A DNA stretch of 34,407 nt from Clostridia bacterium (GTDB taxonomy: Bacteria; Bacillota; Clostridia; Christensenellales; Aristaeellaceae), in the NCBI GenBank assembly GCA_030529995.1, contig JAUMVT010000027.1:1-34407 (forward strand), given 5' to 3'. The position numbers and the translations under genes were made by a program. Below are positions 6,919 to 34,370 of this stretch, in pieces; position 1 is the first letter of the stretch; each line of letters begins with the position of its first letter. The notes beneath the pieces were generated by a model that was not told the origin of the DNA, ran no database searches, and saw nothing but the letters and a program-made list of their open reading frames with translations.

Positions 6919-8955
6919 TTAGTTATCCGTAGGGGATGCTACCAGATCAGACTGCACATAGCATCCGTTGCTGGTTGCGTAGCCAACCACGTTGCTGTCC
7001 AGGGAGGTGATGCGAACGGTGACGGACTTGCCGGCCATGCTGCTCGTCAGCACAAAGGAGGAAGAGCCGGAGTTCTCCAGCAGACCGTCAACGTACCAGT
7101 CATAGGTCACCTGAGAGGCATTGTTGTTGGTCACAGAGGGAGAAAGCACGCTGCCCACGGTGCTGGTGCTGGGCAGGCTGACCGTGCCTGTGTAGGCAAC
7201 AGGAGAAGGCGTTGCCGCAGACACAGCGCAGGAATTGCTGGTCACAGAACCGGTGTAGCCATCCGTGCCGTTGGCGGTGGCCGTCACGGTCAGCACGCCG
7301 CCGGCCATGGAGTCACTCACAGTGATCGAGGAGCCTGTAGCCCCTGCAATGGTGCTGCCGTTCAGCTGCCAGGAATAAGACACGTAGGAAGAATTCAAGG
7401 AAGGAGCCGCCACCACGACGGATCCGGTAGTTGCAGTAGACGGAATGCTGATGTCGCCCTGCAGCTGCTGCTTAGCGGCAGATTCGGTGATGGTCATTTC
7501 CCCGGACTCCACATAGCCGGTGTAGCCGCTGCCGCTCTTGGCGGTAGCACGCACCTTCAGCTTGCTGCCTGCGTTGTTAGGCACCTGCAGGCTGCTGGTG
7601 CCGGAGGACATCAGCCATCCGTCCAGATACCAGCTGTAATCCACCTGGGTGGTGTTCAGGCTGGCCAAAGCCGTTACCGTGCTGCCGGCGGTCGTAAAGC
7701 CGGAGATGGACAAGGTGCCGCTCAGGGGCGTATCCACAGTGCCGGTGGTTACGGCTGCCGTGTTGGAGGAGTAGGCAGTTCCGCTGTAGCTGCCGGTACC
7801 CACTGCCACGCAGTACAGGGTGCGGCCAACATCGCTGCTCTTCACCAGATAGGTCTGACCTGCGCCCACTGCCGTGCCGTCACTGCGGTACCATACATAG
7901 CTGGCGGTTGCCGCAGTGGGATTGGCCGTTGCGTACAGAGTCTGTCCCACCACAGGGCTGTAAGAGTTCAGGTTCACGCCCAGAAGGGTCGTACCGCTGT
8001 TGGTAATGGTATTGGACAGGGTGCTGGTGGCCGTGCCGGTGTACAAGCCGGTGCCGGTCACGGTAACACGGATGCGCTCGCCGTTATCATAAGGCGTTAC
8101 CACATAGCTGGAGCCGGTGCCCACCAAGGTACCGTCGCTATAGGTCCAGCGATAAGTAACGGTAGCGGCGGAAGGCGTTACCACAGCCACCAAGGTGTCG
8201 CCCACCTTGGGAGAGGCATTGTTCAGTGCAACCTTGGAAACCGTGTTCACCACCTGAGAGGTGGTCAGGAACTGGGTCATCATGTAGCCGGTACGGCTGC
8301 CGATGCGGATGTAATCCCAGGTGCTGCCGTGGGTCAGCACGGTCACTTCCGTGCCAACGCTGTACACGCCCAGCACCGCATAGCCTGTGCCTGCGCCTGC
8401 ACGAAGCCGCACGCCCAAGCCATTTTTACTGGTCACCCGTGCCAAATAGCCGGAAGAAGGAGTAGGGGTTACGGAGCCGTCCGTCAGGAACTGACTCATC
8501 ATGTAGCCGGTCTGGGTACCCACACGGATGAACCACCAATAGGTGCCCTTGGCCAGCACCGTCACCGTTGTGCCCACAGGCACCACCTGAATGATGCCGT
8601 ATGCCACGCTGGGGCCGGTACGAAGCCGCACGCCCAAGCCATTGCTGCTGATGACCGTTGCCGTGGAGGTGCTTCCGGAGTCGCCGGAAGCTTTCAGGTA
8701 CTTGGCGTACATGTAGCCGTCGTACCCGTCGCTGGCACGTACATGATACCAGTTGCCATCGCCGGCCGTGCCCAGCACCGTCACTTTCGTGCCTGTATAG
8801 TAACTGGCAAGCGTGGTCGCCGTGAAGTTAGGCAGTGCACGGAGCCGCAGCCAGCCTCCCGTCACCACCATGGTGGTTTCTGCACTGGCTGACATGATGG
8901 GGAGAACCCCGATCAGAAGCGTCAGTGTCAGGATGATTGCAAGAAAACGTTTCAT
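6919..8955 (-). CDS. Secreted protein with three SH3b domains and five Ig-like repeats
   Basis: A 678-residue exported protein. A signal peptide (residues 1-25, ending MSASA) is followed by three bacterial SH3 domains at about 28-92, 98-160 and 168-230, each with a WLRLRALP or LGVRLRTGP core. SH3b domains usually bind peptidoglycan. From about 238 to 670 there are five repeats of about 80 residues built on a V-G-x-x-L...Y-x-W-Y-x-D-G core, resembling bacterial Ig-like domains. No catalytic domain, sortase motif or transmembrane anchor is seen, so it is probably a wall-associated structural or adhesive protein. GGAGGG precedes the ATG. It is 26 bp downstream of another exported protein and likely co-transcribed. 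Confidence 0.85.
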   Translation of the reverse strand: MKRFLAIILTLTLLIGVLPIMSASAETTMVVTGGWLRLRALPNFTATTLASYYTGTKVTVLGTAGDGNWYHVRASDGYDGYMYAKYLKASGDSGSTSTATVISSNGLGVRLRTGPSVAYGIIQVVPVGTTVTVLAKGTYWWFIRVGTQTGYMMSQFLTDGSVTPTPSSGYLARVTSKNGLGVRLRAGAGTGYAVLGVYSVGTEVTVLTHGSTWDYIRIGSRTGYMMTQFLTTSQVVNTVSKVALNNASPKVGDTLVAVVTPSAATVTYRWTYSDGTLVGTGSSYVVTPYDNGERIRVTVTGTGLYTGTATSTLSNTITNSGTTLLGVNLNSYSPVVGQTLYATANPTAATASYVWYRSDGTAVGAGQTYLVKSSDVGRTLYCVAVGTGSYSGTAYSSNTAAVTTGTVDTPLSGTLSISGFTTAGSTVTALASLNTTQVDYSWYLDGWLMSSGTSSLQVPNNAGSKLKVRATAKSGSGYTGYVESGEMTITESAAKQQLQGDISIPSTATTGSVVVAAPSLNSSYVSYSWQLNGSTIAGATGSSITVSDSMAGGVLTVTATANGTDGYTGSVTSNSCAVSAATPSPVAYTGTVSLPSTSTVGSVLSPSVTNNNASQVTYDWYVDGLLENSGSSSFVLTSSMAGKSVTVRITSLDSNVVGYATSNGCYVQSDLVASPTDN

Positions 8956-30929: not shown

Positions 30930-30973
30930 CAGGGGCAGAAGGATTCGAACCCTCAACAAAGGTTTTGGAGACC
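30930..30973 (-). tRNA. tRNA-Trp 3' half (anticodon loop to acceptor), 5' half missing
   Basis: Read on the minus strand, this has anticodon loop CTCCAAA (anticodon CCA, Trp), the 3' anticodon stem ACCTT, a short variable loop, T-arm GAGGG-TTCGAAT-CCTTC with one G-T pair and the acceptor strand TGCCCCT with discriminator G; CCA is not encoded. Similarity stops at the anticodon loop: upstream sequence does not form the 5' stem, no D-arm follows and no AGGGGCA is found in the remaining window on that strand. It is therefore a displaced 3' half, as left at one end (att site) of an integrated element. The fragment cannot be functional alone. Confidence 0.8.
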
Positions 30974-30978
30974 CACGT

Positions 30979-31002
30979 GCACACAGGCTCGCGCCTGTGT
31001 GC
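30979..31002. repeat. Perfect hairpin beside the tRNA fragment
   Basis: GCACACAGGC (30979-30988), loop TCGC, then GCCTGTGTGC (30993-31002). It begins within 6 bp of the end of tRNA similarity. It may be a recombinase-arm or terminator-like structure; role unknown. Confidence 0.75.
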
Positions 31003-31164: not shown

Positions 31165-31569
31165 TTATTCTGTATAGCGTTTGTTAAGATAATCGCTGAT
31201 GGCGTTGTAGAAGTCTTTCGCGCCCTCTATCAGGCGTTGCGTATCTTCTATGGAGCAGATATAGAAATCTTCGTAGTCGCTTCTGTTGCGTATCAAAGAG
31301 GCGTTGGAAATCAACTTGCCATAGTCGCGCGGGAGAATCTCTGTTTTGAGGTAATTCAGCGTGAAGCGGGCGATCACAGCAGAATGTTTTTTGTAGTCCT
31401 CACCATCAAGAGCAAGAACAGCGCGCATTGCGTGAAAAATGCAATAATAGGCGCGGTTATTGGCGGAGGCATAATCTTCTGCATCCATATCACGCTGGGC
31501 GGTGGTAAGCATTTCGGAGGCTTTATCAAGGCGATAACGCGAAAGGTCAATCACAGAACTATCAAGCAC
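31165..31569 (-). CDS. HEPN-domain toxin of an MNT-HEPN pair
   Basis: A 134-residue helical HEPN protein. The first helical half contains YASANNRAYYCIFHAMRAVLAL, typical of the family, and RNRSDYEDFY near residue 93-102 is the RxxxxY-like active-site motif used by HEPN ribonucleases in this subgroup. It is encoded just after a minimal nucleotidyltransferase, with an 8-bp overlap and GTG start behind GGAAGGAG. In the studied HepT-MntA pair the nucleotidyltransferase AMPylates a tyrosine of the HEPN toxin to silence it; similar control is likely here. The low-GC, GCG-rich codon use matches the element, not the host genes. Confidence 0.85.
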   Translation of the reverse strand: MLDSSVIDLSRYRLDKASEMLTTAQRDMDAEDYASANNRAYYCIFHAMRAVLALDGEDYKKHSAVIARFTLNYLKTEILPRDYGKLISNASLIRNRSDYEDFYICSIEDTQRLIEGAKDFYNAISDYLNKRYTE

Positions 31570-31903
31570 TAATGCGCACTCCTTCCTGCTGAATGTTTTT
31601 GAAGAATGGCAAGAGGTTCGCCTGACTATGGAAATAGTCGCGGTTTTCTACAATGGCAGAAACAACGATGCCGTATTCCAGCAGGAGGTCAGCACAGACT
31701 TCGCCAACCTGCCAGTTCTTTTCTGCAATACTCTGGCGGGACGCATCCACAAGAAATAGCACATCAATGTCTGAACCATCGTCCGCTTCATTGCGGGCGT
31801 ATGAACCGAACAGAATCACATCAAACTGCTCCTGCGGAAACAAATGACGGAGACCTTCGCGCAGTTGATTGATAATTGAAAACACTTCGCTCTGCGAACA
31901 CAT
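31562..31903 (-). CDS. MNT-domain nucleotidyltransferase antitoxin
   Basis: A 113-residue minimal nucleotidyltransferase with the GSx10DxD motif: GSYARNEADDGSDIDV, whose two Asp bind metal, and a further acidic region around VVSAIVENRDYF. This is the MntA-like partner of the downstream HEPN protein. I choose the ATG at 31903, which follows AAAGGAGG by 8 nt; codons farther upstream in frame lack a ribosome site. First gene of the pair. Confidence 0.87.
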   Translation of the reverse strand: MCSQSEVFSIINQLREGLRHLFPQEQFDVILFGSYARNEADDGSDIDVLFLVDASRQSIAEKNWQVGEVCADLLLEYGIVVSAIVENRDYFHSQANLLPFFKNIQQEGVRISA

Positions 31904-31966
31904 CGGCGCAACCTCCTTTCTGCTAATGATATTATAGCACAAGCTGTCTTATTTATTCAAGAGCCA

Positions 31967-32134: not shown

Positions 32135-32695
32135 ATGAAGGTCGGCTATGCAAGAGTAAGCACGAAGGAGCAGAACGAGGCAAGGCAGATAAAAGCATTT
32201 GAGGAATTGGGTGTGGAGGTTGTCTACATCGACAAGCAAAGCGGGAAAAACGCAGAACGCCCGAAGCTGAATGAAATGCTTGCGTTCATTCGCAAGGGCG
32301 ATGTGATTATCGCGGAAAGCATCAGCAGAATTGCGCGAAACACAAAAGACCTGCTGACCATCGTTGAAACCATCAACGGCAAGGGCGCGGAGTTTGTCAG
32401 CCTGAAAGAAAGCCTTGACACGCGCACGCCAACAGGAAAGTTTATGCTGACGGTTTTCGGCGCGATGGCGGAGTTGGAGCGCGAATACATTCTCCAGCGG
32501 CAGGCGGAGGGCATAGAAATCGCAAAGGCCGAGGGAAAATTCAAGGGTAAGCCGAAAATGGAGATTGACGAAGAAGCCTTCAGGCGCGAATGTAAGCGGT
32601 GGAGGAACGGCGAACAGACCGCAACAGCAGCAATGAAAAAACTGAATATCAAACCGAACACCTTCTATCGGCGTGTAAAGGAAATGGGGCTGTAA
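32135..32695 (+). CDS. Serine resolvase/invertase
   Basis: A 186-residue small serine recombinase. The nucleophile is Ser9 in VGYARVSTKEQN; the catalytic ESISRIARN and the LKESLDTRTPTGKFMLTVFGAMAELERE helix follow, and the protein ends with a helix-turn-helix (ATAAMKKLNIKPNTFYRRVKEM). Size and order match Tn3/Hin-type resolvases that resolve dimers or invert segments. It is too small to be a large serine integrase, so it probably did not cause the tRNA-Trp integration. ATG 32135 follows GGAGGGAAAG; an in-frame upstream TTG lies at the promoter. Confidence 0.93.
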   Translation: MKVGYARVSTKEQNEARQIKAFEELGVEVVYIDKQSGKNAERPKLNEMLAFIRKGDVIIAESISRIARNTKDLLTIVETINGKGAEFVSLKESLDTRTPTGKFMLTVFGAMAELEREYILQRQAEGIEIAKAEGKFKGKPKMEIDEEAFRRECKRWRNGEQTATAAMKKLNIKPNTFYRRVKEMGL

Positions 32696-33783: not shown

Positions 33784-34146
33784 TCAAAATACGAACTCTT
33801 CAGGCTCCTGCGGTCGCGGTTCGGCTTGCGGCGTGGGCTGCGGCACTTCATAAAAATCATAGCAGTTGCCTTTGCTCCACACCAAATAGCCCTTATCAAT
33901 CATTTTGTTCACATAGGTGTGAAATGTGGTTTTGCGAATGCCCGCGTCCTTTTCCGCGTCCTCCTGCGACAAATTGAAATTATAGCCGTCGCGATTGGAG
34001 GCGAAATAGAGGTAGAGTTGAAGCCCATAGGGCGTTAAATCCTTATTTGCGCGCTTCCAATGCTCATTTTTGATACACAGGAAATCTTTCGCCGCTTTTT
34101 CGCGGTGAACGGTGATATTCTTCTAAAACGGGTGCGATGTTGGCAT
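33784..34146 (-). CDS. Winged-helix replication-associated-like protein with an in-frame TAG
   Basis: From ATG 34146, 9 nt after AAGGAGG, the frame runs 120 codons to TGA with one interruption, a TAG at codon 8 (34125-34123), between Phe and Lys. After it the sequence reads like a winged-helix/phage replication N-terminal domain: LTPYGLQLYLYFASN, DGYNFNLSQEDAEKDAGI and TTFHTYVNKMIDKGYLVW, then a proline-rich acidic tail (PTPQAEPRPQEPEEFVF). No alternative start downstream of the TAG has a ribosome site. If TAG is read (a CAG-to-TAG change would give Gln) the product is full length; otherwise it is a pseudogene. Confidence 0.6.
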
Positions 34147-34160
34147 ACTATTGAGCCTCC

Positions 34161-34370
34161 TTAAAAAATATAGGGTTCGTCGAAGGTTGCGGGTTCATTT
34201 TTATCAAAATCACGAAGCTGCGCCTCCAATGCGGCAAGCATTTCGCTCTATTCAGACAGGTGGAAGGCGATTTCCCGCAATTCATCCGCGATGCGGGCGC
34301 ATTTTCTGCGGAGGTCTTTCTGTTTCAGCTCCATTGCGCTGTTGATGTTCTCCATATTCGGCTTTTTCAC
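34161..34370 (-). CDS. Small coiled-coil protein with an in-frame TAG
   Basis: Starting at GTG 34370 (or in-frame ATG 34355), the frame has 69 codons to TAA at 34161, broken only by a TAG at codon 41 (34250-34248) between Glu and Ser. Both sides are helical and heptad-like (LRRKCARIADELREIAFHLSE before, SEMLAALEAQLRDF after), and the frame stays open either side, so the TAG sits inside a coherent coding sequence. A TATAAT box lies upstream on the minus strand at 34400-34395. It precedes the winged-helix gene in the same direction, whose AAGGAGG begins at this gene's stop. Confidence 0.5.

Follow-up and report, generated by a model that had tools for sequence, protein, structure and literature searches.

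In-frame TAG codons at glutamine positions in a winged-helix and GIY-YIG nuclease gene cassette of small integrative elements in standard-code bacteria

Introduction

Phages that use genetic code 15 are described as reading TAG as glutamine (PMC9523058, PMC10607447), and suppressor tRNA genes are reported to be missing from some recoded phages (PMC10607447). In a survey of pig-gut prophages, 38 of 10,742 use alternative codes (PMC12454387). Amber-to-glutamine recoding is already known in phages; in the loci described here it does not extend beyond one cassette, carried by small elements of standard-code bacteria. Among the papers listed by a literature search, with many subscription papers and bioRxiv outside its coverage, none deals in its title or the start of its abstract with integrative elements or satellites that are recoded. 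These TAG-bearing genes are broken up by standard gene calling.

Results

The window, that is, the whole 34,407-nucleotide stretch that was analysed, is the entire contig C82 of the host genome, assembly G000 (2.54 Mb, 102 contigs, 92.2% complete), and it seems to hold one edge of an integrative element in a tRNA-Trp gene. The features of this region are listed below (genomes, contigs and loci carry the prefixes G, C and L).

30930..30996, minus strand: 3' half of a tRNA gene, from the anticodon loop (CUCCAAA) to the 3' end, which we take to be tRNA-Trp from our reading of that loop; tRNA-like match of 21.9 bits, under the cut-off of 29
31165..31569, minus strand: HEPN-domain protein (Pfam HEPN, E 1.1e-18); no in-frame TAG; ends with TAA
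31562..31903, minus strand: MNT-type nucleotidyltransferase beside HEPN (Pfam NTP_transf_2, E 1.1e-11; PADLOC PDC-S09, E 1.1e-23; matches taken on the frame 31562-31912, ATG 31903 being the chosen start); no in-frame TAG; ends with TGA
32135..32695, plus strand: serine resolvase (Pfam Resolvase, E 1.1e-43); no in-frame TAG; ends with TAA
32920..33084, plus strand: ribbon-helix-helix protein (PHROG 6506, Arc-like repressor, E 3.8e-6); no in-frame TAG; ends with TAA
33065..33376, plus strand: 103-residue protein; no in-frame TAG; ends with TAA
33784..34146, minus strand: gene 2 (P2), winged-helix protein of 120 aa, from ATG 34146 to TGA 33784
34123..34125, minus strand: in-frame TAG of gene 2, codon 8, at the conserved Gln of a PNQ motif
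34161..34355, minus strand: gene 1, 64 aa, from ATG 34355 to TAA 34161, with one in-frame TAG
34248..34250, minus strand: in-frame TAG of gene 1, codon 36 from ATG 34355

The sequence-only reading had described two consecutive minus-strand genes with one TAG apiece, and both TAGs are where it placed them, with no other stop within gene 1 or gene 2. Counted from GTG 34370, gene 1 has 69 codons and its TAG is codon 41; 52 bases of contig lie beyond its ATG. An AAGGAGG lies nine bases ahead of the gene 2 ATG. No relatives of gene 1 were found: with E 0.001 as threshold, a search of 308 genomes returned gene 1 itself and nothing else. Family matches of gene 2 are weak, both in Pfam (MarR_2, E 0.018; HTH_36, E 0.061) and in PHROGs (replication-initiation PHROG 270, E 0.0059). 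The C-terminal PYIF of gene 1 is similar to the tails of many relatives of gene 2. An aromatic-x-Phe ending (EEFVF, EPYIF, GEFEF; window positions 33784 and 34161) closes many gene 2 relatives, gene 1 of the window and a small TAG-bearing protein of L137 and L204 (9652-9906 of L137); this ending is perhaps a shared docking motif.

Read from the tRNA-Trp 3' half, the gene order is HEPN-MNT, resolvase, ribbon-helix-helix, P2 and gene 1, similar to that of the related element L137 seen from the other end. The tRNA fragment is the probable edge of an integrated element, by analogy with the tRNA 3'-end repeats that bound its relatives. An intact tRNA-Trp is absent among the 32 tRNAs above the cut-off in the G000 assembly, as expected for a gene that would lie beyond the contig break. 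The ribbon-helix-helix protein has a weak NikA-like match (Pfam, E 0.0016), and in phage contig L235 a small protein of similar appearance, judged by eye, stands ahead of the gene 2 homologue. In that part of the element which the window covers, we saw no relaxase. The HEPN-MNT pair (31165-31903) is of the toxin-antitoxin type.

In the genome searches, stops of all kinds were read through and counted. Matches to gene 2 were found in 18 of 300 genomes of the host's family in one search and in 18 of 308 in another, the window genome included. Five of the 19 matches in the 300 genomes have one TAG each, the window's among them, and none has a TAA or TGA. Further relatives of P2 came from GTDB contigs (10 loci, some already known), virus contigs (one locus) and 7 of 300 genomes in the family of one newly found genome (three or four of them weak). 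An L054-type P2 used as query gave no match in the virus contigs, and P2 gave none in annotated phage and plasmid records. Wider profile matches in G056, G125 and G671 contain TGA or TAA as ordinary gene ends, and a distant match in G465 (L078) has a TAA at its upstream edge.

Across 26 aligned P2 sequences, the codon of the PNQ motif near the start is TAG in six (the window, L054, L056, L055, L058 and L136) and Gln in the other 20, written CAG or CAA wherever codons were listed. Since L054 and L056 are 94% identical, TAG at this site is counted as about five independent cases. Other TAGs of the family (in L057, in L137 and L204, and in L138) face Gln of near relatives, and one in L138 is close to the gene end. 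Altogether, the 26 sequences contain 92 CAA, 97 CAG and 11 TAG codons, with TAGs in five alignment columns; 16 sequences have no TAG, and carriers mostly have a single early one. Left out of the alignment were L065 and L070 (no N-terminal part, a preceding TGA and a truncated look), L069 (contig edge), L071 (distant, with CAG at the PNQ site), L077-L087 (weak or unrelated), phage contigs L233 and L235, and same-locus duplicates. Frames in this alignment and in that of the nuclease below were cut at TAA or TGA and are blind to those stops; the unbiased stop counts are those of the read-through genome searches.

A second recoded gene, encoding a GIY-YIG nuclease, lies near P2 in L137, L140 and L141; its TAGs fall on Gln positions. 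It was found by an all-against-all read-through blast, which was full of antisense mirror frames and was used solely for this purpose. The family call comes from a Pfam GIY-YIG match below the Pfam cut-off (E 0.0043) and from PHROG 1111, endonuclease (E 3.3e-7). A profile built from three TAG-bearing sequences, one of which (L137) is itself among the nine strong matches, gave 12 matches in 9 genomes out of 350 searched. Each of the nine strong ones, from six genomes (E 2e-47 or better), has one to three TAGs; TAA and TGA are absent from them. The three weak ones, at E 2.5e-4 to 7.1e-4 and in frames of 608-628 residues, are stop-free. The nuclease had no match in annotated phage records and one weak match in annotated plasmid records. 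Genome G829 has three copies of the gene (contigs C21, C22 and C44), with TAGs in each.

Twelve GIY-YIG sequences were aligned, with phage contigs L232, L233, L235, L241 and L242 left out, and contain 23 CAA, 27 CAG and 32 TAG codons. The TAGs occupy 14 columns, and five loci (L141, L206, L207, L210 and L211) have three internal TAGs in a gene of 140 residues. Five of the 32 TAGs have just three codons downstream and one (L186) has just one; these six late TAGs may be true stops. A few positions speak against Gln: one TAG column has Glu in all 11 other sequences, another has Lys in 8 of 9, and TAGs of two other operon genes face Glu. The Glu and Lys columns are scatter of a kind that similar residues could give.

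The residue read at TAG was assessed by a blind test, which asks what residue best fits the aligned columns at a codon. Gln was the best fit for TAG in P2, in GIY-YIG and in the two combined (38 TAGs), and in the control 58 of 61 sense codons were assigned correctly. Downstream of a TAG, six stretches have dN/dS values between 0 and 0.18, and so do two whole genes; the comparisons come from five locus pairs. From the Gln-fitting TAGs and the low dN/dS past them, we infer that the P2 and GIY-YIG proteins are made and selected at full length. For gene 2, in which Gln had been suggested for the TAG from the window alone, the Gln at this position in 20 of 26 sequences, the outcome of the blind test and the purifying selection past the TAGs give us high confidence that TAG stands for Gln.

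If the TAGs were instead dead ends in pseudogenes, or sequencing errors, they would suit the decay of mobile elements, the place of the window gene at a contig end and the truncated look of a few distant P2 relatives (L065, L070, L078). For the family, however, TAG at the same codon in six loci with Gln in the remaining 20, the lack of TAA and TGA in 19 P2 and 12 GIY-YIG matches and the low dN/dS past TAGs argue that decay or error is not the cause, and we regard this explanation as very improbable. The six P2 sequences with TAG at one codon might also suggest that this site is specially programmed for readthrough, or that UAG encodes a non-standard residue, yet TAGs stand at other P2 positions and at many GIY-YIG positions and the blind test returned Gln, leaving this explanation hardly any weight.

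The complete relatives are integrative elements of 4-12 kb in tRNA genes, with direct repeats of the tRNA 3' half at their ends.

L136: tRNA-Pro, 6.5 kb, tRNA 3'-half direct repeats
L137: tRNA-Pro, 7.0 kb, tRNA 3'-half direct repeats
L055: tRNA-Val, 6.1 kb, tRNA 3'-half direct repeats
L057: tRNA-Ser, 7.1 kb, 34-base repeat
L209: tRNA-Thr, 11.3 kb, tRNA 3'-half direct repeats
L210: tRNA-Val, 10.4 kb, tRNA 3'-half direct repeats
L207: tRNA-Thr 3' half in three copies, at 297, 12366 and 18224; two tandem elements, the first of 12.1 kb
L139: 4.3 kb, P2 without TAG, tRNA repeat with the tRNA named by eye

Such repeats were not found in the remaining loci checked for them. With these relatives, and with a probable edge kept in the window, the early suspicion of a mobile element is supported. 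Phage-type integrases were confirmed in L136, L137, L141, L055, L207, L209 and L210, and ARAGORN found no tRNA inside the complete elements other than the target gene. By eye, no structural genes appear in the gene lists of L136, L137, L208, L209, L210, L055 and L207, of which some proteins were covered by family searches. A codon-score search for interrupted genes overlooked the short genes of these elements.

The TAGs are unevenly spread within L137. A minus-strand run of four frames (a coil protein, P2, a small protein and GIY-YIG) has one TAG each; the integrase and three cargo frames have no TAG, and in the resolvase frame a TAG, probably the stop of that gene, stands at residue 202. The 13-mer AAAAAGCGCACAA recurs close to each end of two elements, which come from separate genomes, at 8461, 8473 and 14661 of L136 and at 7839, 7851 and 14536 of L137, and its repeats are possibly integrase arm sites. 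A small acidic protein beside GIY-YIG has a TAG at the matching place in L209 (7672-7887) and L210 (9345-9581).

Genetic code 15, known from some gut phages, was rejected as a code for the whole element. The other five genes of the window element contain 31 CAA or CAG codons and zero in-frame TAG, and none of its seven genes uses TAG as stop codon. In the sibling element L140, a TAG at residue 187 closes the recombinase, at precisely the point where TAA or TGA closes five homologues. TAG is sense in the GIY-YIG gene of L140 and stop in its recombinase, giving two readings of TAG within one element. The SprT-like frames of L140 and L207 each meet a TAG near their ends.

Reassignment of TAG throughout the host was likewise ruled out by release factor 1 (RF1), present in all nine carriers tested, by sampled chromosome sequence, about 426 kb from G000 and 400 kb from G964, in which no in-frame TAG occurs, and by the genes that TAG ends. 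TAG is a very rare gene end in G000 (4 of 328 called genes, from window positions 1-30900 and the samples); in G964, which is a single 3.16-Mb contig and may be an isolate, 26 of 253 called genes close with it, as do 13 of 333 genes of at least 100 residues in other loci. The gene caller behind these counts is crude, and some calls are perhaps antisense.

A suppressor tRNA with anticodon CUA, which the sequence-only reading had proposed to look for, was found neither on the loci nor in 11 carrier genomes, incomplete assemblies among them, with a class-I pattern that recovers 66 of 70 class-I tRNAs. The pattern gave 13 hits in the 11 genomes (8 + 5), all rejected as suppressors; nine are tRNA-Arg(TCT) one base off, and the remaining four overlap no ARAGORN tRNA. 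A resident suppressor could have escaped detection if it lies on a plasmid or phage that was not binned, falls in an assembly gap or has an unusual shape, since many carriers are incomplete, G000 itself being 92.2% complete, and the scan covered class-I tRNAs only. Against this stand the negative result in 11 genomes, including G829 with its three TAG-bearing GIY-YIG copies, and the burden that a constitutive suppressor should place on TAG-ending genes such as the 26 of 253 in G964 (where the scan for a CUA tRNA covered fetched stretches only). A missed resident tRNA is accordingly quite unlikely in our judgement.

Relatives of the cassette were found in phage contigs. A winged-helix gene is followed by GIY-YIG and then by terminase genes in virus contigs L233 and L235, and GIY-YIG occurs with both terminase genes in L232; the P2 match of the L233 winged-helix protein is weak (E 0.0002). 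Pfam confirmed the terminase large subunits of L232, L233 and L241 (the latter a 77% relative of the L235 gene), the terminase small subunit of L232 and the integrase of L235, and PHROGs confirmed the small subunit of L233. L235 has 12 and 5 TAGs in tail frames, 10 in the large terminase and none in the integrase. Gln lies opposite 11 of 26 aligned L235 TAGs, against a background of 3.8%, and opposite 9 of 31 in L247, a second recoded contig. The terminase gene has no TAG in L241 and L242 (terminase 77% identical). The GIY-YIG copies of the phage contigs have four TAGs in L233, five in L235 and none in L232 and L242, and the single TAG of L241 is located before the gene start.

On the 27-kb contig of L235, ARAGORN and Rfam, run on three overlapping pieces, found no suppressor tRNA and a tRNA-Thr only. 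The virus contig in question, 3300037249_000425 (L235, L256, L257), has TAGs in many structural genes and no detectable suppressor tRNA. The lack of a visible suppressor tRNA in the nearest recoded phage weakens the case for suppression brought by a phage, and it keeps near-cognate reading by tRNA-Gln, perhaps with a shortage of RF1, a serious rival. UAG is a near-cognate codon for tRNA-Gln. A host tRNA-Gln could misread it without any helper, and TAG would then attenuate expression, so that a dangerous regulator and nuclease stay scarce. TAG, never TAA or TGA, at Gln sites fits such misreading, as do the mostly single early TAG of P2, the tRNA-Gln(CTG) of the host, the similar lack of a suppressor tRNA in the phage and the rarity of TAG stops in the host (4 of 328 called genes). 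However, GIY-YIG genes with three TAGs would yield very little product by this route, yet purifying selection is seen, and three internal TAGs in one gene make leak alone unlikely; moreover, TAG is an ordinary stop in G964, where it ends 26 of 253 called genes. Taken together, we consider misreading by a host tRNA-Gln an unlikely explanation.

Discussion

The account that we propose instead is as follows. Gene 2 would belong to a phage-type cassette of winged-helix P2, GIY-YIG nuclease and small proteins, which is carried by small integrative elements that sit in the tRNA genes of gut Clostridia with the standard code. Within this cassette UAG would be a glutamine codon, and the integrases and most other element genes would be written in the standard code. 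While an element is integrated and quiet, RF1 would terminate at UAG, with the cassette off or nearly off. Amber suppression would arrive from outside, likeliest through a recoded phage entering or induced in the same cell; UAG would then be read as Gln, and full-length cassette proteins would appear. We give this account as a whole, a glutamine-coding cassette silent under RF1 and expressed on outside suppression, slightly better than an even chance. In this account suppression would be conditional, act in trans and be brought by a phage, and the elements would be phage satellites, a label that we infer from the gene neighbourhood.

Until UAG is read by some means from elsewhere, the cassette genes may be locked. 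A stronger form of this idea is a genetic-code lock, in which a regulator-nuclease cassette is silent in a standard-code host and turned on solely by the amber suppression of a recoded phage, either for packaging with that phage or for nuclease attack on it. We offer it tentatively, as somewhat improbable. The copies without TAG, in 16 of 26 P2 sequences and in the GIY-YIG genes of phage contigs L232, L241 and L242, indicate that such a lock is not universal. If suppression does come in trans, a difference in genetic code would act as a switch between mobile elements, and if the lock is true, the reading of a stop codon would be a phage sensor. A small system of this kind also opens to testing the recoding without a visible suppressor tRNA that is described for some phages (PMC10607447).

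Three described systems resemble these elements in part. Like integrative mobilizable elements, they are tRNA-borne and have a resolvase and a ribbon-helix-helix protein with a weak NikA-like match; unlike them, they show no relaxase in the part of the element inside the window. The code 15 phages, as far as they are described in the sources cited above, share with them TAG at Gln positions and standard-code hosts, and the integrase of L235 is likewise without TAG in a phage whose other genes are recoded. They differ from those phages in that recoding is limited to a small cassette in integrative elements of 4-12 kb with no structural genes seen, and in that TAG still ends another gene in a sibling element. 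Dependence on amber suppression is not known among the features of phage satellites. In their genes and insertion sites, the elements resemble phage satellites such as phage-inducible chromosomal islands (PMC6092414): they are small and tRNA-borne with a tyrosine integrase, and their cassette is related to a phage module that lies beside the terminase.
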